From IMG/VR virus record IMGVR_UViG_3300008113_000424, positions 1-22,272 of that record: 22,272 bases of DNA; one strand, written 5' to 3'. The position numbers and the translations under genes were made by a program. The notes below the pieces were generated by a model. That model was not told the DNA's origin. It saw only the letters and a program-made list of their open reading frames with translations, and searched no databases. The first letter of the stretch is position 1, and each line of letters opens with the position of its first letter. Shown piece after piece: positions 3,710 through 22,272 of this stretch. Source of the DNA: a virus.

Positions 3710-3712
3710 GTT

Positions 3713-5380: not shown

Positions 5381-5397
5381 TATAGGATTTGAAACAA

Positions 5398-5472
5398 GCG
5401 CTTATAGCTCAGTTGGTTAGTAGCGGCGGTCTCATAAACCGTAGGTCCCTGGTTCGAGCCCAGGTTGGCGCA
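5398..5472 (+). tRNA. tRNA with CAU anticodon (Met or Ile2)
   Basis: Acceptor GCGCTTA (5398-5404) pairs with TTGGCGC (5465-5471) with one T-T mismatch and one G-U; D stem GCT/AGC; anticodon stem GCGGT/ACCGT with loop CTCATAA, anticodon CAT; T arm CCTGG-TTCGAGC-CCAGG; discriminator A5472. This is the second CAU tRNA of the window and differs from the one at 436 in almost every stem, so one may be Met and the other Ile2. Confidence 0.9.
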
Positions 5473-5492
5473 CAAAAGGTTCTTTATTTAAT

Positions 5493-5576
5493 GGTCGGAT
5501 GCTGAAATTAGGTATACAGTGCGGACTTAAAATCCGCTGGACATTGTCCGTGTGGGTTCGAGCCCCACTCCGACTA
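5493..5576 (+). tRNA. tRNA-Leu (UAA)
   Basis: Acceptor GGTCGGA (5493-5499) pairs with TCCGACT (5569-5575), first pair G-U; anticodon stem GCGGA/TCCGC with loop CTTAAAA giving anticodon TAA; long variable arm TGGACATTGTCCG as in class II tRNAs; T arm GTGGG-TTCGAGC-CCCAC; discriminator A5576. It reads UUA, a very common codon in these AT-rich genes. Confidence 0.93.
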
Positions 5577-5583
5577 CAACAAG

Positions 5584-7367: not shown

Positions 7368-9227
7368 ATGGGAAAAATTATAGGAATTGACCTTGGAACA
7401 ACTAATTCGTGTGTTGCCGTAATGGAAGGTAACGAACCAGTTGTGATTACAAACAGTGAAGGAAAGAGAACCACCCCTTCAATTGTCGCATTTATTAATG
7501 GTGGTGAGAGAAAGATTGGTGACCCGGCAAAACGTCAAGCGGTTACCAACCCTGAAAAAACAATTTCATCTATTAAGCGTTTTATGGGAACTGGCTTTGA
7601 TGAAAGTAAAAGTGAAGTGAACAGAGTTCCATACAAAGTGGTAAACAGTAAAGGTACTCCACGTGTTGAGATTGACGGTAAGGAGTATTCACCACAAGAA
7701 GTTTCAGCAATGGTTTTACAAAAGATGAAACAAACTGCTGAAGATTATTTGGGTTCTGAAGTTACGGAAGCAGTTATCACAGTACCGGCATACTTCAACG
7801 ACGCTCAACGTCAGGCAACAAAAGAAGCTGGTGAGATTGCGGGATTGAAGGTAATGAGAATTGTGAACGAACCAACTGCTGCGGCACTTGCTTACGGATT
7901 GGACAAACAATCTAAAGATATGAAGATTGTTGTGTTTGACTGTGGTGGTGGAACTCACGACGTATCCATTTTGGAATTGGGTGATGGAGTATTTGAAGTA
8001 TTGTCTACAGATGGTGACACACACCTTGGAGGAGATGACTTTGACCAAGCTATTGTTGATTGGTTGGTTAAAGAATTTCAAGACGAGAACGGATTGGATT
8101 TGACAAAAGACCCAATGGCTCTACAACGTTTACGTGAAGGAGCTGAGAAGGCGAAGATTGAATTGTCATCTTCATCTTCAACGGAGATTAATCTTCCATA
8201 CATTATGCCAGTTGATGGTGTTCCAAAACACTTGGTTCGTAATTTGAGTAAGGCAAAGTTTGAACAACTTGTTGATAGTTTGGTTCAAAGAACTATTAAA
8301 CCTTGTGAGTCGGCTCTTAAAAGTGCGGGACTTAAAACATCTGACATTGATGAAATCATTTTGGTTGGAGGTACAACACGTATTCCGGCAATTCAGGAAG
8401 CGGTTAAGAAGTTCTTCGGTAAAGACCCATCAAAAGGTGTTAACCCTGATGAGGTTGTTGCTCTTGGGGCGGCCATCCAAGCAGGAGTATTAGCAGGTGA
8501 TGTTAAAGATGTATTGTTGTTGGATGTTACACCACTATCACTTGGAATTGAAACAATGGGTGGAGTGTTCACAAAGTTGATTGAAGCGAACACAACAATC
8601 CCAAGTAAGAAATCACAAGTGTTCTCAACTGCGGTTGATAACCAACCATCAGTTGAAATCCACGTGTTACAAGGTGAGAGAGCAATGGCTAAGGACAACA
8701 GAACCATTGGTCGTTTCCACTTGGATGGTCTTCCACCGGCAATGAGAGGTGTTCCACAAATTGAGGTTACATTTGATATTGACGCCAATGGTATCATCAA
8801 TGTATCGGCTCTTGACAAAGGAACCAACAAACAACAAAACATTCGTATTGAAGCTTCATCAGGACTTTCAAAAGAGGAAATTGAAAGAATGAAACAAGAG
8901 GCGGAAGCAAATGCCGATGTTGATAAGAAGGCGAAAGAAGAAGTTGAGACAATCAATACTGCGGATAACACAATATTCCAAGTTGAAAAGGCTTACAAGG
9001 AAATTGAGGATAAATTAACCGAAGAGCAAAAGAACGATATTAATTCATCGTTGGAAGATTTAAAAAATGCAAAGTCTGAAAGAAATATTGATAAAATTAA
9101 AGAATCTATGGAGAAAGTTAACATGACATTCCAAAAGATTTCTGAAATTTTATATAACACTACATCAGAGAATAGTAATCCTGATATGGAAGTTTCTGAT
9201 GTTGACTTTGAAGAGGTTAAGGGTTAA
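7368..9227 (+). CDS. dnaK: DnaK (Hsp70) chaperone, full length
   Basis: 619 residues, colinear with bacterial DnaK (about 638). Seen: [17 protein letters not shown] at residues 4-20 (phosphate 1), [21 protein letters not shown], interdomain linker [12 protein letters not shown], substrate-binding domain (HVLQGER onward), helical lid from about 500 and the classical tail DVDFEEVKG. It would bind and release unfolded peptides using ATP with the host's DnaJ and GrpE, which are not encoded here. Oddity: the phosphate-2 loop reads D191-CGGGTHD, with Cys and His where E. coli has Leu and Phe next to the autophosphorylated Thr (T196 here). Flanked by terminators, so it is a single-gene unit. Full-length DnaK is uncommon in phages; acquisition from a host is likely. 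Confidence 0.97.
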
Positions 9228-9351: not shown

Positions 9352-9738
9352 ATGGAAACAACTTATTTTGTTTTAGGTATGCTCTCGGTTTTTGCTCTAA
9401 TTCTTATTGGGGTGATTACTTGGGGTTGGCTTACGATTAATAAACAACAAACACGAATTAAAAATTTACAAGAAGATACCCAAGGACTGTTGAGAACCAT
9501 CTCAACTGAGATGGATTACACGTCAAGAAGAATTGATACTGAAAGACAAAATATTCATTCTGAGTTTAGAGAACATAACGACAGATTGGAAAGACAAATT
9601 ACGGATATTTGGAGAGGTATGGATAATAAAATGACGGATTCTGTTAGGGAGTCCAATTCATATACTGACAAACGAATTGATAAATTAATTGATACCTATT
9701 TTGATATCAAAAAAAATAAAGACCTTTTAAAAGGATAA
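9352..9738 (+). CDS. Membrane-anchored coiled-coil protein, unknown
   Basis: 128 residues: an N-terminal hydrophobic helix (about 5-28, YFVLGMLSVFALILIGVITW), then a long, charged, heptad-rich segment (about 32-115) predicted by eye as coiled coil. Its orientation would place the coil in the cytoplasm if the helix is a reverse anchor. No signal cleavage site. Start ATG follows an A-rich leader typical of Bacteroidota. It lies between dnaK and the synthetase-like gene, with its own downstream AT-rich spacer. A membrane-remodelling, superinfection or i-spanin-like role can be imagined but is not shown. Confidence 0.7.
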   Translation: METTYFVLGMLSVFALILIGVITWGWLTINKQQTRIKNLQEDTQGLLRTISTEMDYTSRRIDTERQNIHSEFREHNDRLERQITDIWRGMDNKMTDSVRESNSYTDKRIDKLIDTYFDIKKNKDLLKG

Positions 9739-9781
9739 AAAAAAGACTTTTATAACTTTTGTTAATATTTAACTAAAAAGT

Positions 9782-9829
9782 ATGATAAATAAATTACGAA
9801 ACACATATAATTTAGTAAGGAAGTCCTGA
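9782..9829 (+). other. Possible 15-codon leader peptide before the synthetase-like gene
   Basis: ATG 9782 opens a 15-residue frame, MINKLRNTYNLVRKS, whose TGA (9827-9829) lies within the 5' arm of the terminator hairpin at 9824. Three of the 15 codons are Asn. That geometry would suit transcription attenuation of the downstream AsnRS/AspRS-like gene, but AAT/AAC codons are common in AT-rich DNA and no anti-terminator pairing is obvious. Confidence 0.2.
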
Positions 9830-9849
9830 CAATTGTCAGGATTTTTTTT
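9824..9849 (+). terminator. Rho-independent terminator (perfect palindrome)
   Basis: TCCTGACAATTGTCAGGA (9824-9841) is a perfect 18-base palindrome followed by eight T. It is either the end of the preceding unit or an attenuator in the leader of the gene at 9893. Confidence 0.85.
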
Positions 9850-9892
9850 GCCCATACGTTAACAATAAATAAAAAATAAAAATAAAAAAAAA

Positions 9893-10720
9893 ATGAAAGA
9901 CACAAAAACTTACAATGAATTAGTCCAAAAAATGAGGACATTTTTCCAATCAAAAGGATTTAAAGAAGTCCCAACACAATCAAGATTATCAATCTTGGCA
10001 GCATGTGAAAACCCCCACTCAATAACAACATTCAATTATCAGGGAGAGGTTTGGCCACTACCACAAACAGGACAAATGTGGTTAGAATATGAACTACTTA
10101 AAAATCCTGAATGGAATGGTGTTTACTGTATATCAACATCCTACAGACAAGAAAAAGACCCAATCCCTGGCAGACATGAATTAATTTTCCCAATGTTTGA
10201 ATTTGAATCAAAAGGTGGAATGAAAGAAATGATAAAACTTGAATCGGAACTTTTAGACTATTTAGGTTTTGACAAACCTGTTGAGGTTAACTACGACGAT
10301 GTTTGTGAAGAATACGGAGGAGTCCCAATTTTAGAAAACGAACACGAAACAAGAATGTGGGAAGAAAAAGGTCCTGTAGTATCTCTTCAAAATTTCCCTT
10401 ATAGAACAAATCCATTTTGGAATATGAGAGAGAGTAAAAATAGAATATTCAATAAGGTTGACGTAATTCTTTACGGACAAGAAACAATTGGTTCCGCGGA
10501 AAGAAGTTCCAATGTGGAAGAAATGAGAAATAACTTTTACACAATTGAGAATGGTGGTTACTCTGCTAAATTGTTTGAACTATTCGGAAAAGAAAGAGTT
10601 GAGAAAGAATTGGAAGAATTCTTATCACATGACTTCTTCCCACGTTTTGGTGGTGGAATCGGAATGACAAGACTTGCCAGAGCTTATCAGTTAATGATGG
10701 AAGAAGTTGAAGCGTTTTAA
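9893..10720 (+). CDS. Class II aminoacyl-tRNA-synthetase-like catalytic core (Asp/Asn/Lys subclass) without anticodon domain
   Basis: 275 residues matching only the catalytic core of class IIb synthetases. Motif 2: CISTSYRQEKD with R85, then GRHELIFPMFEFE (about 93-105). Motif 3: FPRFGGGIGMTRLARA, with R260 as the ATP-binding arginine. The usual N-terminal OB-fold anticodon-binding domain of AspRS, AsnRS and LysRS is absent; the protein begins with the helix before motif 1. Such stand-alone cores are known to act as asparagine synthetases (the archaeal AsnRS-related enzyme), as protein-modifying ligases (EpmA) or as regulators (HisZ). Which applies here is unknown; an amide or aminoacyl adenylate-forming role is the safe statement. 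Monocistronic, preceded by a palindromic terminator or attenuator. Confidence 0.85.
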   Translation: MKDTKTYNELVQKMRTFFQSKGFKEVPTQSRLSILAACENPHSITTFNYQGEVWPLPQTGQMWLEYELLKNPEWNGVYCISTSYRQEKDPIPGRHELIFPMFEFESKGGMKEMIKLESELLDYLGFDKPVEVNYDDVCEEYGGVPILENEHETRMWEEKGPVVSLQNFPYRTNPFWNMRESKNRIFNKVDVILYGQETIGSAERSSNVEEMRNNFYTIENGGYSAKLFELFGKERVEKELEEFLSHDFFPRFGGGIGMTRLARAYQLMMEEVEAF

Positions 10721-12314: not shown

Positions 12315-13277
12315 ATGAAAATTCTTATTACAGGTGGACTCGGTTTTATCGGGTCCAACTTTTTTAATTACATGAGGGAAAAGTATCCCGATTATGAGAT
12401 GTTAATATTAGATTCTGAGACCTATGCATCAAATAGAAAAAACATTAATAATTTATCAGGATGTCGTTATGTAAAATTTGACATTATAGAAAGAGAACGT
12501 TTGTTTGAATTGTTTGACAATTATAAATTTGAATATGTAATCCACTTCGCAGCAGAATCACATGTTGACAACTCAATTTTAAACCCATTAAAATTTGTCC
12601 AAAGTAATATTGTTGGAACTATTAATTTATTGGACGCTTCGGTGAAATACGGAGTTAAACTTTTTTATCACATATCAACAGATGAAGTTTTTGGTCAATT
12701 GGGTCCTACAGGTTCATTTAATGAAAACACTCCATATGACCCTAGAAGTCCATACTCAGCATCAAAGGCATCTGCTGACCATTTTGTGAGGGCTTATCAT
12801 CATACTTATAACTTACCTGTTGTCATATCAAATTGTTCTAATAATTATGGACCTAACCAACATGATGAGAAGTTTATACCTACGGTCATAAAGAAAGTAT
12901 TGAAAAGTGAGAAAATACCAGTTTACGGTAATGGTTTAAATATTAGAGATTGGTTATATGTTAATGACCATGTTGAGGCAATTGACGCGGTATTTCATGG
13001 TGGGAAGATTGGTGAGACATATTGTATTGGTGGTGGATATGAAATAACGAATATCAGATTGGCTAAAATCATATGTGATAAAATTGACTATATTAAAGAT
13101 TGGGACAGAGATTCAAAAGAACTTATTGAATTTGTAGAGGATAGAAAAGGTCACGACCATAGGTATTCTATTGATAACAGTAAAATTAATAAAACACTTG
13201 CTTGGGAACCAAAAACAAGTTTTGATGAGGGTATTGAAAAAACTATCAAATATTATCTAAATAAATTTGGAAGTTGA
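12315..13277 (+). CDS. rmlB: dTDP-glucose 4,6-dehydratase (short-chain dehydrogenase)
   Basis: 320 residues. It would convert dTDP-glucose to dTDP-4-keto-6-deoxyglucose using bound NAD+, the second step to dTDP-rhamnose and related deoxysugars. Seen: Rossmann motif TGGLGFIGS (residues 6-14), the catalytic T122-D123-E124 in HISTDEVFG, Y147-x3-K151 in SPYSASKAS, NNYGPNQ, and IRDWLYVNDH typical of RmlB. RmlA, RmlC and RmlD and glycosyltransferases are not in the window, so the phage would draw on host dTDP-glucose. It may alter host surface sugars or decorate phage DNA or virions. Other nucleotide-sugar dehydratases (e.g. for CDP sugars) are less likely given the TDE triad. Confidence 0.9.
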   Translation: MKILITGGLGFIGSNFFNYMREKYPDYEMLILDSETYASNRKNINNLSGCRYVKFDIIERERLFELFDNYKFEYVIHFAAESHVDNSILNPLKFVQSNIVGTINLLDASVKYGVKLFYHISTDEVFGQLGPTGSFNENTPYDPRSPYSASKASADHFVRAYHHTYNLPVVISNCSNNYGPNQHDEKFIPTVIKKVLKSEKIPVYGNGLNIRDWLYVNDHVEAIDAVFHGGKIGETYCIGGGYEITNIRLAKIICDKIDYIKDWDRDSKELIEFVEDRKGHDHRYSIDNSKINKTLAWEPKTSFDEGIEKTIKYYLNKFGS

Positions 13278-13297
13278 TGATTGTTTTATTACTTTTG
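13267..13297 (+). promoter_or_regulatory. Bacteroidota-type promoter before the 13302 gene
   Basis: TTG at 13267-13269 and TACTTTTG at 13290-13297 with 20 bases between; exact -7 match, five bases before the start codon. Confidence 0.6.
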
Positions 13298-13301
13298 TCC
13301 T

Positions 13302-13553
13302 ATGAATAACAGAACAGTAATAATCACAAGTAAAGAATTCGGACAAATTTTGAGTCAAACATTCACTGACGCTACTCAGTTGAAAATGTTTTTAAACATG
13401 ATTCACGTTTCTTTAGTTAATAAAGAAGAGTTCTCAATATTCAATGGTGTTGACCAACTAACACACATTCCTTATGAGATATTGAAGAATTGTTTAGTTT
13501 TCACTAAAGAGAATCAAATCTCTTTTACTGAAATCGTTAAAAGTAAAATTTAA
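13302..13553 (+). CDS. Small phage protein, unknown
   Basis: 83 residues, MNNRTVIITSKEFGQIL onward. ATG 13302 is chosen because it follows the promoter; upstream codons are promoter sequence. Alpha/beta with a central amphipathic helix (ATQLKMFLNMIHVSLV) and no motif I recognise. Single-gene unit ended by the three-hairpin region at 13558-13630. Confidence 0.65.
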   Translation: MNNRTVIITSKEFGQILSQTFTDATQLKMFLNMIHVSLVNKEEFSIFNGVDQLTHIPYEILKNCLVFTKENQISFTEIVKSKI

Positions 13554-13557
13554 TAAT

Positions 13558-13630
13558 CTTTGTTTAAAACAAAGTGGTGGACGACTTATCCAAAGTCGGG
13601 CTCTTAAAAAGGTGGGAAACCACCTTTTTT
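13558..13630 (+). ncRNA. Three-hairpin intergenic RNA ending in a terminator
   Basis: CTTTG(TTT) (13558-13565) with (AAA)CAAAG (13567-13574); CGACTT (13582-13587) with AAGTCG (13593-13598); then a strong terminator, AAAAGGTGG (13607-13615) with CCACCTTTT (13620-13628), GAAA loop and T run. The terminator is secure. The two upstream hairpins could be a 3' UTR or a small RNA of about 60 bases: AATCTTTG at 13555-13562 is one base off a -7 box. GGTGG at 13576-13580 could compete with the terminator arm. Confidence 0.5.
13607..13630 (+). terminator. Rho-independent terminator
   Basis: Nine base pairs closing a GAAA tetraloop, with A run upstream and T run downstream. It is the last clear terminator of the window; none is seen from here to 22272. 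Confidence 0.9.
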
Positions 13631-13652
13631 GTATTTGATTATATTTATAGGT

Positions 13653-13946
13653 ATGAAAAAAATTATAATTAAAGAGTCACAACTAAATCAAATTAAAAAT
13701 CTTTTGACTGAGGATAAGGATAAAGATAAGGGCTCAGTTAAAGACAAACTTTTTATAATATCTACTTTGGCTCATGAGATGTTTGAATCATTAGAAAATG
13801 AGGATGAAATGGAAGATTGGATAAAAAGTAAAATTTCACAGTGTGAGCAAGATATAATTAATGTAATTGAATCATATTTTCACAACGAAACTAAAAGTTC
13901 ACCTGATATTGAAGAGAAGTTAAAAGATTTGGTAATAGGTAAATAA
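13653..13946 (+). CDS. Small protein with MKKIIIKESQ tag, possible capsid-internal protein
   Basis: 97 residues from ATG 13653 (a longer TTG start would add eight hydrophobic residues that overlap the TATATTTA -7-like box at 13640). It begins MKKIIIKESQLNQIKNLL, a divergent form of the tag found at 1622, 1948 and 6855, again with I-x-E then S. After a KDKDK linker, residues about 36-85 form a helical domain (LFIISTLAHEMFESL, then MEDWIKSKISQCEQDIINVI) that to my memory resembles a small helical domain recurrent in virion-associated proteins of T4-like environmental phages; this cannot be confirmed here. Function unknown. Confidence 0.65.
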   Translation: MKKIIIKESQLNQIKNLLTEDKDKDKGSVKDKLFIISTLAHEMFESLENEDEMEDWIKSKISQCEQDIINVIESYFHNETKSSPDIEEKLKDLVIGK

Positions 13947-13983: not shown

Positions 13984-14199
13984 ATGCGTTATTTAAAGAC
14001 ATTTCTGAACATACTTTTTTTTGTTTTTTTACCTTATTATTTTGAAATTTGTTTTCCTTGGTTTGAAGATTTCAGACCTAATAATTTATTTTATATATGG
14101 ATGTTTGGATTTGTTAGATTAGAAATTTTATTTCTAATTTTATTTTTTATCTATAATTTAATTAAAGTATTAAGCGAAAATAAACATGACTATGAATAA
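13984..14199 (+). CDS. Small two-helix membrane protein, unknown
   Basis: 71 residues with two hydrophobic segments (about 5-25, FLNILFFVFLPYYFEICF, and about 36-62, rich in F, I, L) and a short charged tail (SENKHDYE). ATG 13984 follows the promoter by four bases. Its end overlaps the start of the methylglyoxal synthase gene, so both are translated together. A second 71-residue two-helix protein lies on the other side of that gene (14604). Function unknown. Confidence 0.65.
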   Translation: MRYLKTFLNILFFVFLPYYFEICFPWFEDFRPNNLFYIWMFGFVRLEILFLILFFIYNLIKVLSENKHDYE

Positions 14200-14578
14200 T
14201 AAATTTAATATTGCGGTTATTGCTCACGATAACAAGAAGGCTGATATGGTGGCCTTTATTATGAAGAGATTGGATTTCTTCAAACGTAGGGCTAACATTT
14301 ACGCAACAGGAACGACAGGTAAACATATTGAGTTTGCTGGTGTTAAAGTTAATAGGTTACAATCAGGACCTATGGGTGGTGATGCTCAGATTGCTGCCAA
14401 GATTGTTGATAAAGATATTGATTATGTAATCTTCTTTATTGACCCATTATCATCACATCCCCACGAGGTGGATGTTCAGATGGTGTTAAGAATATGTAAT
14501 GTAACTGACACACCAATTGCCACAAATTACTCAATGGCAAGTATGATGATAAATTATTTGGAGAGTGAGGAAGTTTAA
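14192..14578 (+). CDS. mgsA: Methylglyoxal synthase
   Basis: 128 residues from ATG 14192 (ATG 14186 adds two residues). It would convert dihydroxyacetone phosphate to methylglyoxal and phosphate. Aligning by eye to E. coli MgsA, every catalytic position is kept with the same spacing: H12 in VIAHDN (H19), D64 in SGPMGGDAQ (D71), D84 in FFIDPL (D91), H91 in HPHEVD (H98) and D94 (D101). The phosphate-binding ATGTTGKHIE is also present. It stops about 24 residues before the E. coli C-terminus. Operon with the preceding membrane protein; the next promoter (14558) lies in its last codons. An active enzyme in a phage would divert glycolytic triose phosphate and relieve phosphate limitation, or produce a toxic aldehyde. 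Confidence 0.93.
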   Translation: MNNKFNIAVIAHDNKKADMVAFIMKRLDFFKRRANIYATGTTGKHIEFAGVKVNRLQSGPMGGDAQIAAKIVDKDIDYVIFFIDPLSSHPHEVDVQMVLRICNVTDTPIATNYSMASMMINYLESEEV

Positions 14579-14820: not shown

Positions 14821-15270
14821 ATGAAGATTTATTTAGATGATGTTCGCACACCAATGGATAAGGACTGGATGGTTGTTAGAAACTACCACGAGTTTGTGAA
14901 TTTGGTTCAGAAGGTTGGAATTAAGAATATTGCAACCATTTCTTTGGACCACGACTTGGGTGATAGTGCAATGAATGAGTACTTCAACAACGTTGCTCCA
15001 AACTTTAAATTGGATTATGGAAATATCAATGAGAAGACTGGATACGATGCTGCTAAGTTCTTGGTTGATGAGTTTTACACTCAATACCCTGAAAGATTGG
15101 TGATGAATCATTTTGATAAAAAGAAAGAACCGATAATGTTTCCAATTGTTTTGGTTCATTCAGCTAACCCTATTGGTTCTGCAAATATGATGGGTTACAT
15201 CAATAACTTCTTGATGAATGAATCTAAACCACAAACTTGTGTTAGACACTCAATACCGCACACCGTATGA
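14821..15270 (+). CDS. Cyclic-phosphate-processing receiver-domain protein
   Basis: 149 residues with the fold of a receiver (CheY-like) domain but another active site, as in the cyclic-phosphate processing receiver family proposed by comparative genomics to act on 2',3'-cyclic phosphates of cleaved RNA. Seen: MKIYLDDVRTP with D6-D7, ISLDHDLG with D43-H44-D45, TGYDAAKFLV, and VLVHSANPIGSANM with H113-S114. The family is often linked to RNA ligases, and two lie about 3 kb downstream. The proposed role here is to prepare RNA ends, for example of cleaved tRNA, for sealing. No phosphorelay partner is present. ATGA overlap with the next gene. Confidence 0.82.
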   Translation: MKIYLDDVRTPMDKDWMVVRNYHEFVNLVQKVGIKNIATISLDHDLGDSAMNEYFNNVAPNFKLDYGNINEKTGYDAAKFLVDEFYTQYPERLVMNHFDKKKEPIMFPIVLVHSANPIGSANMMGYINNFLMNESKPQTCVRHSIPHTV

Positions 15271-15473
15271 CAAGTAGAATTGTAATTGATGTTGAATTGA
15301 CGATTAACCAAAGAATTGAAATCATTGAAAAGATTGACCAACACTTTGACATTCTTGATTTCGGAATTAATTCTAATTTTAATAAGGACACACAGGATGA
15401 AGATTTACATAAGACAATTGACAATCTTTATCCTGGTGTCCCAAGAAAGGTAACTGCTTATTACATAATTTAA
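15267..15473 (+). CDS. Small phage protein, unknown
   Basis: 68 residues, coupled to the receiver-domain gene by ATGA. Opening MTSRIVIDVELTINQRIEII is strand-helix; the middle is acidic (NKDTQDEDLHKTIDNL). No known motif. Position suggests co-expression with the RNA-end-processing protein but gives no direct clue to function. Confidence 0.6.
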   Translation: MTSRIVIDVELTINQRIEIIEKIDQHFDILDFGINSNFNKDTQDEDLHKTIDNLYPGVPRKVTAYYII

Positions 15474-15484
15474 AACAAAATAAT

Positions 15485-15763
15485 ATGCCAAATTTCACAG
15501 CTTATAATGTTGATGTTGATTTAGATATTGATGTTGACGAGTTTTTATCTAACTGTTCAAAAAGAGAAATTAAGGAAGTGATTACTGCTCTTATTGAAGA
15601 CGGACACCTTGCAAAACACCCATTACAGCCTTGGAATGAAGATAAGATAAGTCCGATGGAAGAAGAGTTCATAGGTAAATTACACACCATTTCAACCAAG
15701 TATTACTCAATGACAGATGAGGAACTTGAAATGATTAATAACCTTTATAACAAATACCGATAA
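15485..15763 (+). CDS. Small acidic phage protein, unknown
   Basis: 92 residues: an acidic N-terminal strand with alternating D (VDVDLDIDVDEF), then helices (SKREIKEVITALIEDGHL and TDEELEMINNLYNKY). The repeated D-x-D-x-D might bind metal, or simply reflect an acidic DNA-mimic-like surface; neither is shown. It lies 11 bases after the preceding gene, and one base separates its stop from the next ATG. Confidence 0.65.
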   Translation: MPNFTAYNVDVDLDIDVDEFLSNCSKREIKEVITALIEDGHLAKHPLQPWNEDKISPMEEEFIGKLHTISTKYYSMTDEELEMINNLYNKYR

Positions 15764-15764
15764 T

Positions 15765-15935
15765 ATGTTAACTAAGTTACTTTATTTTTTATTTGTTATG
15801 TTTTTATTGGCGGTTTCAAGTATTTTATTCATTTTGATTGGAGAATATTTTGCCGGTAAGTTTAAAAGTAGTAGATTTACAAAGTGGTGGAGAAGAAACG
15901 TAATAACCCAAATGCCTGAAAATTATGAAGATTAA
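15765..15935 (+). CDS. Small single-helix membrane protein, 56 residues
   Basis: ATG 15765 to TAA 15935. One long hydrophobic helix (about 4-27, KLLYFLFVMFLLAVSSILF) is followed by a basic segment (KFKSSRFTKWWRRN), consistent with an inner-membrane protein with a cytoplasmic basic face. It starts one base after the previous stop and overlaps the phosphoesterase gene by 11 bases, which supports it as a real coupled gene despite its length. Function unknown. Confidence 0.6.
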   Translation: MLTKLLYFLFVMFLLAVSSILFILIGEYFAGKFKSSRFTKWWRRNVITQMPENYED

Positions 15936-16608
15936 AGTAACATTAATGTCTGATACTCACACAAAGGAAAGAAATGTCCTTGTAAGTGGTGGTGACTTGA
16001 TTTTGCATAGCGGTGACGTTATGAATTCAGGTTACGATTGGGAAGATTTGTATGACTTCTTAAATTGGTTCAGTGAGTTACCATATAAGATGAAGGTATT
16101 CATTCCTGGTAATCACGACAGATACATTGAGGACAAACCATTTGACGCTTGGAAAATGATTCGTGAATTTAACGACAAAGGTGTTATTTGTTTGATTGAT
16201 GATTTCGTTGAGTTTGAGGGATTGAAAATCTATGGTAGTCCTTGGCAACCTGAGTTCTACAATTGGGCATTCAACTTACCACGAAACGGATGGGAGATTG
16301 AACAAAAGTGGAAAGATATTCCTGATGATACCGACATCTTGTTAACACACGGACCGGCTTGGGGTATCTTGGATACAGTTGTTAATCGTCGTGATTTTAA
16401 TCTTGGATGTGAGATGCTTACAAAACGATTGGAAACATTGCATCCTTTGATTCACAACTGTGGACATATCCATTCAGGTTATGGTTATGTTGAGAAGAAC
16501 GGAACACACTTCTTCAACTCATCTGTGTTGGATGAACGTTATTCTCACAGCCAAAAACCTTTTGACATTACAATTGATTTGGAAACTAAACAAATAGATA
16601 TAATATGA
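15925..16608 (+). CDS. Calcineurin-like metallophosphoesterase (MPPED/239AB type)
   Basis: 227 residues with the complete dimetal set: SDTHT (D10, H12), HSGDV (D31), PGNHDRY (N63, H64, D65), LLTHGPAWG (H142) and CGHIHSGYG (H181, H183). The THGPAWG form is typical of the MPPED2-like subgroup. It would hydrolyse phosphomono- or diesters, possibly cyclic nucleotides or RNA 2',3'-cyclic ends. The location between the receiver-domain gene and the RNA ligases fits RNA-end processing, but the substrate cannot be read from sequence. ATGA overlap with the following lipoprotein gene. Confidence 0.92.
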   Translation: MKIKVTLMSDTHTKERNVLVSGGDLILHSGDVMNSGYDWEDLYDFLNWFSELPYKMKVFIPGNHDRYIEDKPFDAWKMIREFNDKGVICLIDDFVEFEGLKIYGSPWQPEFYNWAFNLPRNGWEIEQKWKDIPDDTDILLTHGPAWGILDTVVNRRDFNLGCEMLTKRLETLHPLIHNCGHIHSGYGYVEKNGTHFFNSSVLDERYSHSQKPFDITIDLETKQIDII

Positions 16609-16874
16609 AAAAATCAAATTTTTATGTAGTACTGTTATTTACATTACTAACAATTATGGCGACGATGGTGTCTTGTACAGACGCAACAATGAGTAAGATG
16701 GGTGGTTATGGAGACACCTTTACGGTTAAGGTTCTTGGACCTGACACCATGATTACCTACCACTCAACAGGTAAAGTGATTAGTGAAGAAAACTCTGATG
16801 GGTATTATTTTACAAATCGTGAGACTGGAAAGTTGATTGAAGTGAGTGGAAACATTATTATTGAACAAGAATAA
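16605..16874 (+). CDS. Small putative lipoprotein
   Basis: 89 residues, coupled by ATGA. The N-terminus is a signal peptide (KKSNFYVVLLFTLLTIMAT) ending in M-V-S-C at residues 21-24, an acceptable lipobox with C24 as lipidated residue. The mature part (about 65 residues) is a small beta domain (DTFTVKVLGPDTMITYHSTG). Phage-encoded lipoproteins of this size sometimes block superinfection or act at lysis; neither is shown here. The next gene starts on its stop (TAATG). Confidence 0.65.
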   Translation: MKKSNFYVVLLFTLLTIMATMVSCTDATMSKMGGYGDTFTVKVLGPDTMITYHSTGKVISEENSDGYYFTNRETGKLIEVSGNIIIEQE

Positions 16875-16966
16875 TGTTGGCACTTGGATGTTTACTGATA
16901 GGGATATGGACAGGTATGTTCATATCCTTTTTAATAACTAAACCTTTTTATAATAAAGAAAAATGA
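16874..16966 (+). CDS. 30-residue membrane peptide
   Basis: ATG 16874 overlaps the previous TAA and its TGA (16964-16966) overlaps the next ATG at 16963, so it sits exactly in a translation-coupled chain. The product is almost entirely one hydrophobic helix (LALGCLLIGIWTGMFISFL) with a basic tail (KPFYNKEK). The perfect overlaps on both sides argue that it is real, though conservation is untested. Confidence 0.45.
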   Translation: MLALGCLLIGIWTGMFISFLITKPFYNKEK

Positions 16967-17148
16967 GCGGACATAGTATGAAAGTATTGGAGCAATACCT
17001 CCATGAAAAAAAACAACAAGCTGAAAGATTAAGGGATAATACATCTCAAAAAGATTACTTTAATGGGCAGGTTGAAATTATTGATGAGATATTAAGAGAA
17101 ATGAAAGAAAAACCGACACCTTTTAATCCTTGGTTGATGCCATTTTAA
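16963..17148 (+). CDS. Small helical phage protein, unknown
   Basis: 61 residues, ATGA overlap with the membrane peptide. Highly charged, mostly helical (MKVLEQYLHEKKQQAERL, then EIIDEILREMKEK), ending in an aromatic/proline tail (PTPFNPWLMPF). Reminiscent of small adaptor or regulatory coiled-coil proteins, with no identified function. Last gene of the unit from promoter 14558. Confidence 0.62.
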   Translation: MSGHSMKVLEQYLHEKKQQAERLRDNTSQKDYFNGQVEIIDEILREMKEKPTPFNPWLMPF

Positions 17149-17166
17149 AAATTTGATTTATCTTTG
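17134..17166 (+). promoter_or_regulatory. Bacteroidota-type promoter before the 17171 gene
   Basis: TATCTTTG at 17159-17166 is an exact -7 match; TTG at 17134-17136 is 22 bases upstream, slightly long. Start codon four bases after the box. Confidence 0.55.
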
Positions 17167-17170
17167 TCCC

Positions 17171-17773
17171 ATGATTGACAATATTGAATTAATAAAACCA
17201 TTACTGAACTTTGAAAACGAGGGGGACTTCTATATGCTCTATGTTTTCAAACGAAAGAAGGACCAACCTGAAGGTGAGAGGGACAATCACCAGTCAGTTC
17301 GCACCATCAAAACTTATTGTGTTAATAGTGTTGGATATTTGGAGAAACGATATGATGAGATTAAACAACTTTGTGAGATGTTTAAAGCTCGTGCATATAT
17401 CCATGTTCAGAAACAAAACCATAAGGATGTCTCTTTGGAGATGATGATATCTTTGGCTGAAAGAATTCGTAATGGACAGAACATTCAGAAAGGTTTATTT
17501 GATTCAGTTGTTGGGCAGATTAAAACTTATGAGAAGAGGTGGATTGTAGATGTTGATAGTAAGGATAACAAAGAGTTATTAAATGTTAAACTTGCAATTG
17601 ATAGTTGTGCTCCTTTTGGGAAGGATAAAATCATAAGTGAAATCCCAACCAAAAATGGTTATCATATTATCACTGAAAGATTTGATGTGATGGAGTTTGG
17701 CAAACATTACCCTGATGTTGATATTCAGAAAAAAAATCCAACTTTGTTATTTTTACCTGAAAGTTTAAGTTAA
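17171..17773 (+). CDS. Phage protein, possible archaeo-eukaryotic-primase-like fold
   Basis: 200 residues, ATG 17171 just after the promoter. Not firmly recognised. The C-terminal half has KRWIVDVDS with D127-x-D129, then PTKNGYHIIT with H165 about 36 residues later, then PDVDIQ (D182, D184). A hydrophobic DxD, then a G-x-H strand, then a further acidic residue is the motif order of archaeo-eukaryotic primase/polymerase domains. That is suggestive only, since the protein is short and the N-terminal half (residues 20-100) is unassigned. The next gene, an RNA ligase, begins 18 bases later with its own promoter; primase-polymerase and ligase partners are known in end-joining systems. Confidence 0.6.
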   Translation: MIDNIELIKPLLNFENEGDFYMLYVFKRKKDQPEGERDNHQSVRTIKTYCVNSVGYLEKRYDEIKQLCEMFKARAYIHVQKQNHKDVSLEMMISLAERIRNGQNIQKGLFDSVVGQIKTYEKRWIVDVDSKDNKELLNVKLAIDSCAPFGKDKIISEIPTKNGYHIITERFDVMEFGKHYPDVDIQKKNPTLLFLPESLS

Positions 17774-17779
17774 ATTTAT

Positions 17780-17787
17780 TATCTTTG
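17780..17787 (+). promoter_or_regulatory. -7 box before the RNA ligase gene
   Basis: TATCTTTG, exact match, four bases before the start codon; same TATCTTTGTC context as at 17159 and 18833. No TTG at the best upstream distance. Confidence 0.5.
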
Positions 17788-17791
17788 TCAA

Positions 17792-18829
17792 ATGGAAAGA
17801 AAATTAGCAACTATTAGAAGGATTGCCGACATCTCACCGATTGAGGGGGCAGATAAGATTGAACTCGTTACCGTTGATGGATGGAAAGTTGTTGTTGCAA
17901 AAGATGTTGGACACAAAGTTGGCAACTTGGTGGTTTATTGTGAGATTGACTCATTTTTACCAATTAAAGATGAGTTTGAGTTCTTGCGTAAATCTTCATA
18001 TAAGAAAATGGTTGACGGGACAGAAGGGTTCCGATTGAAAACAATCAAATTGAGAGGACAGGTGTCACAGGGTTTAATTCTACCCATCAATGTTCTTCCT
18101 ATCACCCAATTTGCTTCTGGACATAATTTACCTGAAGGAATGGATGTAACAGAAATGTTGGGTATTGTTAAATACGAACCACCAATTCCTGCTGAACTTG
18201 CGGGTAAGGTTAAAGGAATGTTCCCATCGTTTTTACATAAGACAGATGAGGAGAGAGTTCAAAATCTTACATCTGAGTATGAGGAATGGAAAATCCAATC
18301 TAAACATCAATTTTATGTGACTGAGAAGTTGGATGGTTCATCTGCAACATTCTATGTTAATGATGGGGTATTTGGTGTATGTTCTCGTAACCTTGAACTA
18401 TTGGAAACTGAAGGTAATACTTTTTGGAAAGTTGCTCGTGAGTTAGATTTGGAGAATAAAATGAAATCAGTTGGACGAAACATTTGTTTCCAAGGGGAGT
18501 TAATCGGGGAAGGAATTCAGGGGAATCCATATAAAATAAAAGGTCAAACCGTTAAGTTCTACACAGGATTTGACATTGACAAACAAATAAGAATTTCCTT
18601 TGTTAATTTTGTTGTAATGTTACAAGAAATGGATTTAGGATATGTACCAGTGTTAAATCAGGGATTTGGATTCCAATTACCTGAAACTGTTGGGGATATG
18701 TTGAACTACGCTGAAGGTAAATCAGCATTAAATTCGGACACTGAAAGAGAGGGAGTTGTAGTTCGTTCTATGGATGGAACGATTTCATTCAAAGCAATCT
18801 CAAATAAATTTTTAATTAACGAAAAATAG
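17792..18829 (+). CDS. RNA ligase, DRB0094/Rnl5-like
   Basis: 345 residues. The N-terminal module (about 1-110, ERKLATIRRIADISPIEGAD then VVYCEIDSFLP) matches the OB-fold-containing leader of the Deinococcus DRB0094 RNA ligase family. The nucleotidyltransferase core follows: motif I TEKLDGSS with the AMP-accepting K179, motif III FQGELIG, motif IV EGVVVRS and motif V ISFKAIS. It would seal RNA 3'-OH and 5'-phosphate ends through ligase-AMP and RNA-AMP; the Deinococcus enzyme prefers nicks with an RNA 3' end. Its own promoter and the directly adjacent second ligase with the same promoter type suggest coordinated use. Confidence 0.92.
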   Translation: MERKLATIRRIADISPIEGADKIELVTVDGWKVVVAKDVGHKVGNLVVYCEIDSFLPIKDEFEFLRKSSYKKMVDGTEGFRLKTIKLRGQVSQGLILPINVLPITQFASGHNLPEGMDVTEMLGIVKYEPPIPAELAGKVKGMFPSFLHKTDEERVQNLTSEYEEWKIQSKHQFYVTEKLDGSSATFYVNDGVFGVCSRNLELLETEGNTFWKVARELDLENKMKSVGRNICFQGELIGEGIQGNPYKIKGQTVKFYTGFDIDKQIRISFVNFVVMLQEMDLGYVPVLNQGFGFQLPETVGDMLNYAEGKSALNSDTEREGVVVRSMDGTISFKAISNKFLINEK

Positions 18830-18832
18830 TCG

Positions 18833-18840
18833 TATCTTTG
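18833..18840 (+). promoter_or_regulatory. -7 box before the second RNA ligase gene
   Basis: TATCTTTG, exact match, four bases before the start codon; the TATCTTTGTCAAATG string is shared with the preceding ligase gene. No TTG at the ideal distance. Confidence 0.5.
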
Positions 18841-18844
18841 TCAA

Positions 18845-19906
18845 ATGAATAAAGTTCTAAATAGATATTTTGAGGAAGGGTTGGTGTATAAACAAGTACA
18901 CCCAACTTTTCCTTTGACTATATGGAACTATACTGAAACCGTTCAATACGAAGATAAATGGGACGATGTTACCCTACAAACTCGTGGACTAGTGACTGAT
19001 GGAAATGGGAAGGTTGTTGCCCGACCATTCAGAAAGTTCTTCAATATGGAGGAAGGTAAACACACTGCAACTCCTGAGTTTGATGTCTACGATAAGATGG
19101 ATGGTTCTTTGGGTATATTATTCAATTACGAAGGTGAATGGGTAATGGCGACTCGTGGTTCCTTTACTTCTGACCAAGCGGTTAAAGGGTTTGAGATGTT
19201 ACAGAAGTATGATTATCAAAAACTACATAAGGACTACACTTACTTGTTTGAAATAATATATGATGAGAATCGTATAGTTGTGAAATACCCATACGAAGAT
19301 TTGGTATTGCTCGGAATGATAAACACTGAAACTGGATATGAGGTTGATTTGTATGGTGAGGGAGTTGATGTTAGATTGAAGAACTTAATAAACAATCTTG
19401 GTTTCAAAGTCGTTAAGAAGTATGACGGTATAAACGATTACTCTGTCTTAAAAGAAATGATAAAGGACGATGAGGAAGGGTTTGTTGTTCGTTTCTCTAA
19501 TGGTGATAGAATGAAAGTTAAGGGTGAGGAGTATCTTCGTCTTCATAAGATAATGACTAATGTTTCTACCACTGCGGTATGGGAAATGTTGAGTGAGGGT
19601 CAGGATGTGTTGGAATTATTGAAAGATGTTCCTGACGAGTTCTACAAAAAGATAAGGATGTATGTTGCGGATTTAAGATACAACCACTATCGTTATGGTG
19701 AATATGCTGGTAAAATACACGACTATTTCCGGTATGGTAAGTATGGCGATAGAGACCCTGAACCATCAAAGAAAGAGTTTGCATTACATTTGGATGAATG
19801 TAAGACCCACCCAAAGATAAAGACATTATGTTTTTTGATATGGGATGGAAAGAGTACTGATAAAGTAATATGGAATTATTTAAAACCTGAATATAAAAAA
19901 TTATGA
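18845..19906 (+). CDS. T4 RNA ligase 1-like enzyme
   Basis: 353 residues of the T4 Rnl1-like family, which joins single-stranded RNA and in T4 repairs tRNA cut by the host anticodon nuclease PrrC. Seen: LQTRGLVTDGNGKVVARPF and KFFNMEE upstream of motif I, motif I YDKMDGSLG with AMP-accepting K84, motif III YLFEIIYDENRIVV, motif IV EEGFVVRFSNG and motif V MKVKGEEYLRLH. The C-terminal helical part (about 245-353) is the likely substrate-specificity domain. The T4 partner Pnkp is not in the window; the receiver-domain protein (14821) and the phosphoesterases could do that work. ATGA overlap with the next gene. Confidence 0.92.
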   Translation: MNKVLNRYFEEGLVYKQVHPTFPLTIWNYTETVQYEDKWDDVTLQTRGLVTDGNGKVVARPFRKFFNMEEGKHTATPEFDVYDKMDGSLGILFNYEGEWVMATRGSFTSDQAVKGFEMLQKYDYQKLHKDYTYLFEIIYDENRIVVKYPYEDLVLLGMINTETGYEVDLYGEGVDVRLKNLINNLGFKVVKKYDGINDYSVLKEMIKDDEEGFVVRFSNGDRMKVKGEEYLRLHKIMTNVSTTAVWEMLSEGQDVLELLKDVPDEFYKKIRMYVADLRYNHYRYGEYAGKIHDYFRYGKYGDRDPEPSKKEFALHLDECKTHPKIKTLCFLIWDGKSTDKVIWNYLKPEYKKL

Positions 19907-20190
19907 ATGAAAAGAATTTTTGGGCAAATTTTGTCGTTGGAACCGCAATAGCATTGTTTACAATGTGTATAATTGCAATCGTGATAAAAGATAGTGGTAA
20001 AGGTGCTACCTATGTTGGTAGAGAAAAACATGTGGTAACCAGTGTTAAACGACACATACCAAGAAGTGTTCAAGAGGAAATGAATCTGTATTACGATGTT
20101 ACCATTGATGATACGACAACATTCAAAACTCTGAAGAACTATTCAGTTGGTGATACAGTATATTATGAAATCTATAAAATAAATAAGTGA
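19903..20190 (+). CDS. Small membrane-anchored protein, unknown
   Basis: 95 residues, ATGA-coupled to the Rnl1-like gene. One N-terminal membrane helix (about 8-28, ANFVVGTAIALFTMCIIAIV), then a basic linker and a small beta-rich domain (LYYDVTIDDTTTFKTLK, then SVGDTVYYEIYKI) that probably faces the periplasm. It resembles the small OB- or SH3-like domains common in phage and bacterial membrane proteins. No function assigned. Its stop overlaps the next ATG (TGATG). Confidence 0.65.
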   Translation: MNEKNFWANFVVGTAIALFTMCIIAIVIKDSGKGATYVGREKHVVTSVKRHIPRSVQEEMNLYYDVTIDDTTTFKTLKNYSVGDTVYYEIYKINK

Positions 20191-20450
20191 TGGAAGTAAG
20201 TATGGACGGACTAAGAAACCACTTGTTAAGAAGTTATAACTCTTTGGTTTCTAAATTAAATCGCCGAATTGATGGTGATGATATCGTTGATTTGGAGATT
20301 TACGATATTGAAAAAGAACTTGAAGGTATTAGAAATTGTGTTGTCACACTTGCCTTTACATCAATGGAAGGAGAAGGTGGATGGAAAGCAATGGATGAGA
20401 ATACCTACTTTGAACAATTTAATCCTGAGGAAGATTTGGAAGAAGAATAA
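20190..20450 (+). CDS. Small acidic phage protein, unknown
   Basis: 86 residues from ATG 20190, overlapping the previous stop as TGATG (a GTG one codon upstream is less likely). Predicted helices (DGLRNHLLRSYNSLVSKLN and DLEIYDIEKELEGIRN), a conserved-looking TSMEGEGGWKAMDEN turn, and an acidic tail (NPEEDLEEE). No catalytic motif. Its coding sequence contains the TTG element of the next promoter. Confidence 0.65.
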   Translation: MEVSMDGLRNHLLRSYNSLVSKLNRRIDGDDIVDLEIYDIEKELEGIRNCVVTLAFTSMEGEGGWKAMDENTYFEQFNPEEDLEEE

Positions 20451-20466
20451 TTTTATTGTATATTAG
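20436..20466 (+). promoter_or_regulatory. Bacteroidota-type promoter before the 20471 gene
   Basis: TTG at 20436-20438 and TATATTAG at 20459-20466 with 20 bases between; one mismatch in the -7 box, four bases before the start codon. Confidence 0.5.
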
Positions 20467-20470
20467 CACA

Positions 20471-20710
20471 ATGAAAGCAAAATTAGAATTTGATTTAGAT
20501 GACTTTGATGACAGAATGGCTCACATGTGTTGTGTTAAAGCTTCCGATATGGCTTCCATTTTATTTGAAATGAGTACTAATGCTCGTAAAAGAATAACTA
20601 TGGGTTCAGAATATGGAGAAGAATACTATAAAGGAGTTGACGATGTCTTCAATAAGTTGAGAGAATTAATGGATAAACATAATATTGACATAGACGAATT
20701 AATACGATGA
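20471..20710 (+). CDS. Small conserved-type phage protein
   Basis: 79 residues from ATG 20471, beginning KAKLEFDLDDFDDRMAH and followed by KASDMASILFEMST and a C-terminal helix ending NIDIDELIR. This arrangement (short strand with L-x-F-x-L, acidic DD, long helix, D-E-L-I end) is one I know from many phage hypothetical proteins of about 80 residues, whose function is not known. ATGA overlap with the next gene. Confidence 0.7.
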   Translation: MKAKLEFDLDDFDDRMAHMCCVKASDMASILFEMSTNARKRITMGSEYGEEYYKGVDDVFNKLRELMDKHNIDIDELIR

Positions 20711-21315
20711 AAACAAATTTTACAAATACATTTTTTGAAAGCTTTGAAAGAATGATAAACCGACAAAGATGGTATTGGAAAACCTACGATTTATTTAGGT
20801 ATGACCTCCCAAACTTTTTCCGTAATCTTTGGTTGTTCCGTAAAAACTTATGGAACCACACTTGGTATAACGGAGATGGTTCTATATTGCCTTGGGTGAA
20901 AACTGCGGTTGATGATATGGCGTGGAAAATTGAAACTCGCGGACACGAGGTGGATGAAAGTCGTATGAAGAAAGTTGCAAAGATGAAACGACTATCATAT
21001 CTTATTGATGTTTGTGTTCACGATACATTCATTGAAGAAGCCGAAAAGGAATTGGGTATTGAAATGATTTTACATCCTTGGGAGTTCGTGCCGGCAGAAG
21101 GACATGAAGGTTCATATGAGTTATTAGATAAAGATACTCCCGAAGAAAAAGAACATAATCATAAAATCTTGGAAAGGTCCCACCAAATTCAAAAAGAATA
21201 TTGGGAAGAACTTTGTTACATCATCAAGGGACCTGACTATGACTTAATTAGAGAGACAGGTGAAGATTTTTATGAAAAACTTGATGGAACTGATATTAGA
21301 AGTTGGTGGGATTAA
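20707..21315 (+). CDS. Phage protein, unknown, Trp/Tyr-rich
   Basis: 202 residues, coupled by ATGA. The N-terminal 60 residues are unusually rich in aromatic and basic residues (RQRWYWKTYDLFRYDL, then NLWLFRKNLWNHTWY). The rest is helical and acidic, with a region of His/Glu (HPWEFVPAEGHEGSYEL, then KEHNHKILERSHQIQKEYW). No transmembrane helix and no known catalytic motif. It forms a two-gene unit with the 20471 gene. Confidence 0.68.
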   Translation: MKTNFTNTFFESFERMINRQRWYWKTYDLFRYDLPNFFRNLWLFRKNLWNHTWYNGDGSILPWVKTAVDDMAWKIETRGHEVDESRMKKVAKMKRLSYLIDVCVHDTFIEEAEKELGIEMILHPWEFVPAEGHEGSYELLDKDTPEEKEHNHKILERSHQIQKEYWEELCYIIKGPDYDLIRETGEDFYEKLDGTDIRSWWD

Positions 21316-21334
21316 AAAAATATTAATATATTCG
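21303..21334 (+). promoter_or_regulatory. Bacteroidota-type promoter before the 21339 gene
   Basis: TTG at 21303-21305 and TATATTCG at 21327-21334 with 21 bases between; one mismatch in the -7 box, four bases before the start codon. Confidence 0.5.
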
Positions 21335-21338
21335 CCGT

Positions 21339-22037
21339 ATGATTTTAAGAATTGAAAAAGATATAAAGGGAGTATTCCCAAACATTTGGATATGTTCTGA
21401 CCCTCACTACAATCACAAAAACATTTGTAGAGGGACAACAAATTGGAGAACAACAGATAATGAAATTCCTGTTGACCAAACTCGTGACTTCCCAACACTT
21501 GAAAGGATGAACGAGTCAATCTTAAATGGCATTAACTGGAATGTGGGTCAGGATGATGTGTTGATTTGTCTTGGTGACTGGTCATTTGGTGGATTTGAGT
21601 TTATCAAACAATTCCGTGATAGAATTGTATGTAAGAACGTTCACTTGGTACTTGGGAACCACGACCATCACATTGAAAGAAACAGGGAGAATATTAAATC
21701 AATATTCAGTTCCGTTTCAGAATATCTACGAATTGTTGTGATGGAACCTGTGAAGAAAAACGAAGCAATGAGTCACGAGTTCGTATGTATGCACTACCCA
21801 ATCCAAAGTTGGGATGGATTGAACAAAGGAATTATTCACCTTCACGGACACGTTCACTTACCAAACGAAAGAAAGTTCGGTAAAGGAAAGAAAATGGATG
21901 TTGGATTTGATGGACACCCTGAGTTTCGTCCTTATAATTTGTTAAGGGAGATTGTCCCAATAATGAATAAAAGAGAGATGTTGTCAGATATGCCAAACGA
22001 CCATCATCTTGAAAGATTGTTAAATGCTGATAAATAA
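21339..22037 (+). CDS. Metallophosphoesterase, phage type
   Basis: 232 residues with the calcineurin-like dimetal set: SDPHYNHKN (D21, H23), CLGDWSFGG (D80), LGNHDHH (N107, H108, D109), MHYPIQSWDG (H152) and LHGHVHLP (H171, H173). It belongs to another subgroup than the 15925 enzyme: the SDPHYNHKN start and MHYP motif are typical of phosphoesterases found widely in phages. It would cleave phosphomono- or diesters; the substrate is unknown, with RNA or nucleotide ends being plausible given the nearby ligases. The next gene starts one base after its stop. Confidence 0.9.
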   Translation: MILRIEKDIKGVFPNIWICSDPHYNHKNICRGTTNWRTTDNEIPVDQTRDFPTLERMNESILNGINWNVGQDDVLICLGDWSFGGFEFIKQFRDRIVCKNVHLVLGNHDHHIERNRENIKSIFSSVSEYLRIVVMEPVKKNEAMSHEFVCMHYPIQSWDGLNKGIIHLHGHVHLPNERKFGKGKKMDVGFDGHPEFRPYNLLREIVPIMNKREMLSDMPNDHHLERLLNADK

Positions 22038-22038
22038 T

Positions 22039-22272
22039 ATGATTGAAAAACTGATTAAAAACAGAACTCCATATCTCGGTAAGATGATATTGAAGTTTGA
22101 GAAACACCCACACTATTCAAGTAGTCAGGATGGTAAATTAAATAAAGTTCACCTTAATTTAGGGTTCACCAAATTGGTTTCTAGGTTCATACCTAAACAG
22201 GTTATGGAAGGACACTCAAATGTTGACCCTGAAAAAGTTAAGTTGATTGAGAAATACACTGATGGTGTTATT
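22039..22272 (+). CDS. Start of an unknown phage gene, 3' end outside window
   Basis: ATG 22039, one base after the previous stop, opens a frame that stays open for 78 codons to the end of the window. The visible part begins MIEKLIKNRTPYLGKMIL and is basic (SRFIPKQVMEGHSN, then VDPEKVKLIEKY). Spacing to the phosphoesterase gene fits an operon. No motif recognised. Confidence 0.6.
   Translation, partial: MIEKLIKNRTPYLGKMILKFEKHPHYSSSQDGKLNKVHLNLGFTKLVSRFIPKQVMEGHSNVDPEKVKLIEKYTDGVI

Follow-up and report, generated by a model that had tools for sequence, protein, structure and literature searches.

A candidate RNA end-healing and sealing gene set in an uncultured phage

We analysed the whole of an IMG/VR virus fragment of 22,272 bases (IMGVR_UViG_3300008113_000424), referred to here as the window. 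It carries an island of five intact genes on the + strand within 7.2 kb, encoding a cyclic-phosphate-processing receiver-domain protein (cREC), two phosphoesterases (PPE1 and PPE2) and two RNA ligases, with a gene for a protein of predicted archaeo-eukaryotic primase (AEP) fold among them. The interpretation that we favour, with somewhat better than even confidence, is that the island encodes, spread over several genes, the phage's own set of RNA end-healing and sealing functions. As the record consists of these 22,272 bases only, the absence of a gene from the window proves little, and absence tests were therefore made on relatives. The island genes are:

14821..15270, + strand: cREC, cyclic-phosphate-processing receiver-domain protein, 149 aa (PF20274, E 6e-21)
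15925..16608, + strand: PPE1, MPPED2-like class III metallophosphodiesterase, 227 aa (PF00149, 8e-12)
17171..17773, + strand: AEP-like small protein, 200 aa (phrog_14949, predicted fold)
17792..18829, + strand: Rnl5-type RNA ligase, N-terminal OB domain plus nucleotidyltransferase, 345 aa (PF21189, 5e-37; PF09414, 2e-20)
18845..19906, + strand: Rnl1-type RNA ligase, 353 aa (PF09511, 3e-19)
21339..22037, + strand: PPE2, calcineurin-like phosphoesterase, 232 aa (PF00149, 1e-8; phrog_547, 1e-37)

The five genes were identified by family profile searches, and a check against homologues found the catalytic motifs complete in cREC, both phosphoesterases and both ligases. Profile matches, positions and motifs all agree with the original prediction, made from the DNA alone, that these five gene types lie on one strand within 7.2 kb.

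cREC scored 75.4 bits against PF20274, for which the curated cut-off is 27. Its AlphaFold2 (AF2) model had a predicted local distance difference test score (pLDDT) of 96.6. When structural matches were re-ranked with VIA-align, the 50 best matches listed were all receiver domains (Z 7.7–9.0, 85–101 residues aligned); Foldseek alone returned nothing at E<=0.001. The predicted model is that of a receiver-like fold. Residues D6, D7, D43, H44, D45, T73, H113 and N116 are invariant in 27 homologues, the aspartates D6, D7, D43 and D45 being of catalytic type. A search of cREC against PDB sequences gave kinase matches only, at chance level, and these were discarded. The family was named by Iyer et al. 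(2021; PMC7824862), who predicted that it processes 2′,3′-cyclic phosphate or cyclic ADP-ribose (cADPR), described its genes as linked in operons with those of RNA ligases, and noted calcineurin-like phosphatases now and then. Action of cREC on RNA ends and its link to RNA ligases are thus already published as a prediction (PMC7824862), and cREC has since been described as experimentally uncharacterised (PMC9503650).

PPE1 matched the MPPED2 structure 3rl4 at E 2.6e-34 in a sequence search of the PDB, and its full metal-ligand set (DxH, GD, GNH, H and GHxH) is kept in 40 homologues. The MPPED group is reported to prefer 2′,3′-cAMP, with a fly member that has no phosphomonoesterase activity (PMC10547211), and the bacterial class III phosphodiesterase SpdA is specific for 2′,3′-cyclic nucleotide monophosphates (2′,3′-cNMPs; PMC4222275). 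PPE1 is a candidate 2′,3′-cyclic phosphodiesterase. PPE2 carries the full metal-ligand motif set across 86 homologues. A sequence search found a single relative of solved structure, a hypothetical protein from Aquifex, and an NCBIfam search yielded no useful name for either PPE2 or the AEP-like protein. PPE2 is a candidate 3′(2′)-phosphomonoesterase.

The Rnl5-type ligase passed the TIGR02306 equivalog cut-off (206.9 versus 151.15 bits). Its OB domain (PF21189, 5–99) precedes the nucleotidyltransferase domain (PF09414, 173–335), and it matched Naegleria RNA ligase 5cot (E 8e-73) and phrog_968 (2e-89). DraRnl-family (Rnl5) ligases seal nicked duplexes. The Rnl1-type ligase matched the T4 Rnl1 structure 2c5u at E 6e-11. 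Motif I, as KLDGS or KMDGS, is present in both ligases and is followed by the EG and KxK motifs; in the Rnl1-type protein K89/D91/G92, E216/G217 and K229/K231 (open reading frame (ORF) numbering) are conserved in 81 homologues. This protein reached only 72.8 bits against the T4 RnlA equivalog model TIGR02308 (cut-off 242.25), and the T4_Rnl1_C domain, PF20819, was not detected in it at E<=1, the same domain being detected in the T4 protein. Because it is recognised by PF09511 and misses the TIGR02308 cut-off, the second ligase is classed by profile as a member of the Rnl1 family that is not a T4 RnlA equivalog. The Rnl5-type gene is lineage-specific: window positions 17790–18831 stand opposite about 370 unrelated bases (9617–9988) in L007, the closest colinear relative, and the flanks align at 88%. 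The two-ligase set of the original prediction is therefore present in the window but is a feature of this lineage, the Rnl5-type gene being absent at the matching place in L007.

T4-type repair requires a 5′-kinase. No kinase was found in the window, where a search for kinase remnants gave a best tblastn E of 0.12, and the set had been called Pnkp-independent. This description stems from the end of the contig, 235 nt beyond PPE2, and relatives hold a stand-alone PseT-related kinase in the island. In a blastn comparison, window positions 20436–22271 aligned with L007 11327–13158 (87.2% identical), up to the last base of the window. The ATG of the L007 kinase lies at 14415, about 1.26 kb past the point that matches the window end, and one further ORF separates the kinase from the colinear ORF at 12914–13654. 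The window therefore probably ends just short of a kinase gene, and we infer the kinase of this very phage from its relatives. The following feature marks the window end:

22024..22272, + strand: start of an ORF truncated by the contig end, directly after PPE2 (colinear ORF in L007 at 12914–13654)

Among 34 relative records scanned, a stand-alone AAA_33 kinase of 130–166 residues was present in most of those from IMG/VR. The copies scanned belong to phrog_2071, with phrog_8238 and phrog_505 (T4 PNK) as next-best matches, and are of the PseT-related P-loop type; a search against PDB sequences gave no match. The gene lies between cREC and Rnl1 in three records (G001, G002 and G003), is consecutive with Rnl1 and cREC in G022–G024, and follows PPE2 in L006–L009, which are colinear with the window. 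Copies in L003 (8472–8825) and L004 (3190–3543) have no in-frame P-loop start, which is likely to reflect a frameshift or gene decay. The search for Pnkp- or Hen1-like genes that had been suggested as a check was run on relatives. HAD_PNKP, the HAD 3′-phosphatase half of T4 Pnkp, exceeded its cut-off in only two of the 34 records (G016 and G017), and in G017 it is not fused to the kinase. Hen1 (Hen1_L, PF12623) was found in none of 40 relative records and was positive in the control, Deinobacterium. RlaP, the usual nucleotide-restoring partner in RNA repair, was likewise found in none of the 40.

To measure clustering around the kinase, contigs of at least 50 kb were reduced to 18 lineages by seed identity. 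PPE2 was present within the fetched stretch in 13 of the 18 lineages and Rnl1 in 12, always on the same strand; at most 3.6 were expected, a maximum that supposes one gene copy in every contig. Two other genes of the region, a methylglyoxal synthase-like gene (MGS) and g20707, were not enriched around the kinase in this test, and neither was PPE1. Proximity was also measured on whole contigs of 21 lineages, a set chosen via three of the tested genes and reduced by hand. All 15 pairs formed by cREC, PPE2, kinase, Rnl1, Rnl5 and the AEP-like gene were nearer than random (Fisher p 1e-3 to 2e-8). PPE2 and the kinase lie a median of 2.3 kb apart (p 2e-8), and the values for cREC–PPE2, PPE2–Rnl1 and cREC–Rnl1 were 2e-8, 1e-6 and 2e-4 respectively. 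The control gene, encoding the replicative helicase DnaB, gave no association (p 0.98–1.0). The same families thus cluster repeatedly in different backbones and DnaB does not, so that the clustering is beyond chance. The neighbourhood check proposed with the original prediction was borne out in that cREC, the ligases, PPE2 and the kinase recur together. Complete cREC–PPE2–kinase–Rnl1 runs were found in L320, L321, L323, L330, L334–L340 (except L338, which was counted separately), L342 and L343.

A fused protein family points in the same direction. In phrog_8238 (737 positions) a PseT-like kinase (1–141), a PPE-matching segment (about 192–259) and an Rnl1 ligase (about 435–685) are joined, and in relatives its profile matches the kinase, PPE2 and Rnl1 of one island, each encoded by a gene of its own. 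Because phrog_8238 unites three activities that the island holds as separate genes, the island looks like a dispersed version of a kinase–phosphoesterase–ligase protein, an arrangement familiar from bacterial Pnkp.

From these genes we infer the catalytic steps, the RNA substrate and a counter-defence role as follows. An endoribonuclease of the host or of a competitor would cleave tRNA or rRNA to leave a 2′,3′-cyclic phosphate and a 5′ OH. The cyclic phosphate would be opened by cREC, by the MPPED2-like PPE1, or by both, and PPE2 would strip the resulting monophosphate to give a 3′ OH. The 5′ OH would be phosphorylated by the stand-alone P-loop kinase, which relatives encode shortly past the point at which the contig ends. 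Single-stranded breaks, for instance in cleaved anticodon loops, could then be sealed by Rnl1, and nicks in duplex RNA by the Rnl5-type ligase. The repair of RNA breaks made by host defence had already been proposed for this island; the recurring association backs the repair theme, though the notion of Pnkp independence is not supported.

The AEP-like protein, which the original prediction left unannotated, may add a further activity. Its AF2 model (pLDDT 86.4) was best matched by VIA-align to the RepB′ primase (Z 8.2, 131 residues, root-mean-square deviation 3.1), followed by Pol-alpha primase subunits (Z 6.3–6.9) and the S-2L PrimPol (6.8). By the standard of VIA-align itself the Z is borderline, and Foldseek without this re-ranking gave no match at E<=0.001. 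Residues D127, D129, G163 and H165 (DxD and GxH) are invariant, as in archaeo-eukaryotic primases, and a third acid is not. Because the invariant D127xD129 and GxH165 motifs offset the borderline Z, we have moderate confidence in the predicted archaeo-eukaryotic primase-type fold, and the protein looks like a small primase-type polymerase. In the 21 lineages the gene frequently lies close to PPE2, to Rnl1 and to the kinase (p 3e-7 to 1e-6), and it also occurs without the rest. As a hypothesis only, it could refill broken RNA ends. On this rather improbable scheme it would be a polymerase that puts back nucleotides missing from broken RNA ahead of ligation, taking the place of the absent RlaP nucleotidyltransferase; with phosphoesterase, kinase and ligase it would do for RNA what the LigD-type end-joining kit of bacteria does.

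Several observations weigh against an RNA repair kit. None of the island proteins, and no cREC, has a known activity, and the island kinase could act on a substrate other than an RNA 5′ OH. In a looser test at +/-10 kb the cREC–Rnl1 association was not significant (6/22, p 0.28), and in several contigs cREC lies 16–46 kb from Rnl1. The matches of PPE1 and PPE2 to the phrog_8238 segment are weak (E 0.065 and 0.01). The isolates closest in DNA sequence, the Flavobacterium immuto phages, have genomes of 160 kb that were deposited as complete; they keep PPE1 and PPE2, and in one shown case (3-5A) cREC, and neither an RNA ligase nor an AAA_33 kinase was detected in them. Cellulophaga phi17:2 similarly has cREC and PPE2 with no ligase detected. 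Because the immuto phages keep the trio and show neither ligase nor kinase, cREC, PPE1 and PPE2 can serve without a phage ligase, either through host enzymes or by degrading soluble cyclic nucleotides.

The latter function is the basis of the strongest alternative, which we regard as possible but clearly less probable than RNA repair. Here cREC, PPE1 and PPE2 would degrade small cyclic signal nucleotides (cADPR-type molecules, ADPR 1″,2″-cyclic phosphate or 2′,3′-cNMPs) and so blunt host immune signalling, the ligases working separately. Both cADPR and ADPR-cyclic-phosphate have been proposed as cREC substrates, with Nudix fusions (PMC7824862, PMC9503650), free 2′,3′-cAMP is cleaved by MPPED-type enzymes (PMC10547211) and 2′,3′-cNMPs are the specific substrates of SpdA (PMC4222275), and the trio is found in complete isolate genomes with no ligase or kinase detected. 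Nevertheless, the tightest clustering of PPE2 is with the kinase and Rnl1, and Nudix, SIR2 and Macro genes were not recognised among the window proteins scanned. An accessory-gene hotspot, in which unrelated phage genes gather in one exchangeable region with no common pathway, seems unlikely. It would account for the differences in gene order between lineages, for members that occur alone (often so for the AEP-like gene) and for the insertion of the Rnl5-type gene relative to L007, but it is disfavoured by the 21-lineage proximity tests, by the kinase-seeded test, in which enrichment near the kinase is seen for PPE2 and Rnl1 but not for MGS, g20707 or PPE1 from the same region, and by the fusion of the same three activities in phrog_8238. 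It is very improbable that the island is not about RNA and that the Rnl1-type protein mainly helps to attach tail fibres, a function that T4 gp63 has as well: the protein matches phrog_562 ('RNA ligase and tail fiber protein attachment catalyst'), but no tail gene was recognised around its gene, the adjoining genes are of end-healing type, T4_Rnl1_C was not detected and the score was below the RnlA equivalog cut-off.

Promoter-like boxes link only part of the island. The box TATCTTTG precedes three of the genes:

17159..17166, + strand: TATCTTTG box, 4 nt upstream of the ATG of the AEP-like gene
17780..17787, + strand: TATCTTTG box, 4 nt upstream of the ATG of the Rnl5-type ligase gene
18833..18840, + strand: TATCTTTG box, 4 nt upstream of the ATG of the Rnl1-type ligase gene

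The arrangement TATCTTTG-N4-ATG was not found in front of the window cREC, PPE1 or PPE2 genes. The similar promoters originally ascribed to the island thus hold for both ligases, and for the AEP-like gene, but not for these three. TAnnTTTG resembles the Bacteroidota –7 box. In the form TAnnTTTG-N2-8-ATG it occurs nine times on the + strand (3.1 expected; maximum of 200 simulations, 10) and not at all on the – strand; at 5631 and 13290, too, it stands exactly 4 nt before an ATG, and a box of this type precedes many of the Rnl1 (81/172) and PPE2 (79/169) genes of relatives. The full Bacteroidetes pattern, TTTG-N18-21-TAnnTTTG, was found four times in the window (1.2 expected) and directly before none of the five genes. 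Sigma-70-like sites in the window were at chance level (33 versus 36.0 +/- 5.7 expected), and the sigma-70 and terminator scan was at or below chance. Because the –7-like box is only 4 nt from the ATG, transcripts would have a very short leader or none, and the pattern fits a Bacteroidota host.

Two further genes border or lie within the island:

14186..14578, + strand: MGS, methylglyoxal synthase-like gene, upstream of cREC (NF003559, E 1e-45)
20707..21315, + strand: g20707, conserved protein of 202 aa, no family match, recurring near cREC, PPE and AEP-like genes in relatives

MGS is often directly upstream of cREC or PPE2 in relatives and has no shown role in repair, and g20707 recurs there beside cREC, PPE1 and the AEP-like gene. 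Upstream of the island are five phage tRNA genes (Met x2, Glu, Tyr and Leu) at 436–5577, so that tRNA supply and repair genes are both present in the window. The ORF at 9893–10720 (275 aa) encodes a catalytic domain like that of class II aminoacyl-tRNA synthetases (PF00152) and seems to lack an anticodon-binding domain; the one at 7368–9227 encodes a full-length DnaK-like chaperone, which is upstream of the island in several relatives too. Small proteins encoded at 1622, 1948, 6855 and 13653 have unlike bodies and a common N-terminus of the form MK(Y/K)(L/I)I(T/K)ES(Q), resembling a common leader or targeting tag.

New in the island are the phosphoesterase–kinase–Rnl1 core as a recurrent unit without a HAD phosphatase, the MPPED2-like member, the second, Rnl5-type ligase and the AEP-like neighbour. 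What was a loose prediction, of cREC close to ligases, becomes a defined and testable gene set with a named kinase, phosphatase and possible polymerase. This set is widespread in uncultured phages and probably does not depend on a HAD phosphatase of T4 type. If tRNA repair is its function, it would show how such phages survive RNA-cutting defences and would supply a first assay for cREC.

Among known systems, the bacterial Pnkp phosphatase is calcineurin-like. It belongs to a superfamily other than that of T4 (PMC4411300). The island shares with bacterial Pnkp (Clostridium thermocellum type) and with phrog_8238 the same three activity types, but its genes are separate, its ligases are Rnl1 and Rnl5, and Hen1 was found in none of the 40 relative records. 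With T4 PseT (Pnkp) and RnlA (gp63) it has in common an Rnl1-family ligase and, in relatives, a PseT-related kinase; that kinase, however, stands alone, HAD_PNKP is rare, metallophosphoesterases would take the phosphatase role, and T4_Rnl1_C was not detected in the window ligase. PPE1 resembles the MPPED1/2 class III metallophosphodiesterases, a family that prefers 2′,3′-cAMP, but is phage-encoded, with 227 aa and a predicted activity only. The nearest counterparts are the cREC–RNA ligase neighbourhoods of jumbo and V5-like phages, in which cREC is linked to ATP-dependent RNA ligases (PMC7824862, PMC9503650). V5-type loci combine a T4-like ligase, cREC, a nucleotide kinase and at times a calcineurin-like phosphoesterase around a sirtuin (PMC9503650). 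That central sirtuin was not recognised in the window, and what recurs here is a metallophosphoesterase–kinase–Rnl1 core together with an AEP-like gene and a second ligase, of Rnl5 type, HAD phosphatases being mostly missing. Finally, the window Rnl5-type ligase matches DraRnl and NgrRnl over its full length, passes their equivalog cut-off and shows no distinguishing feature that we could see in its sequence; unlike them, it is encoded by a phage and lies beside end-healing genes.

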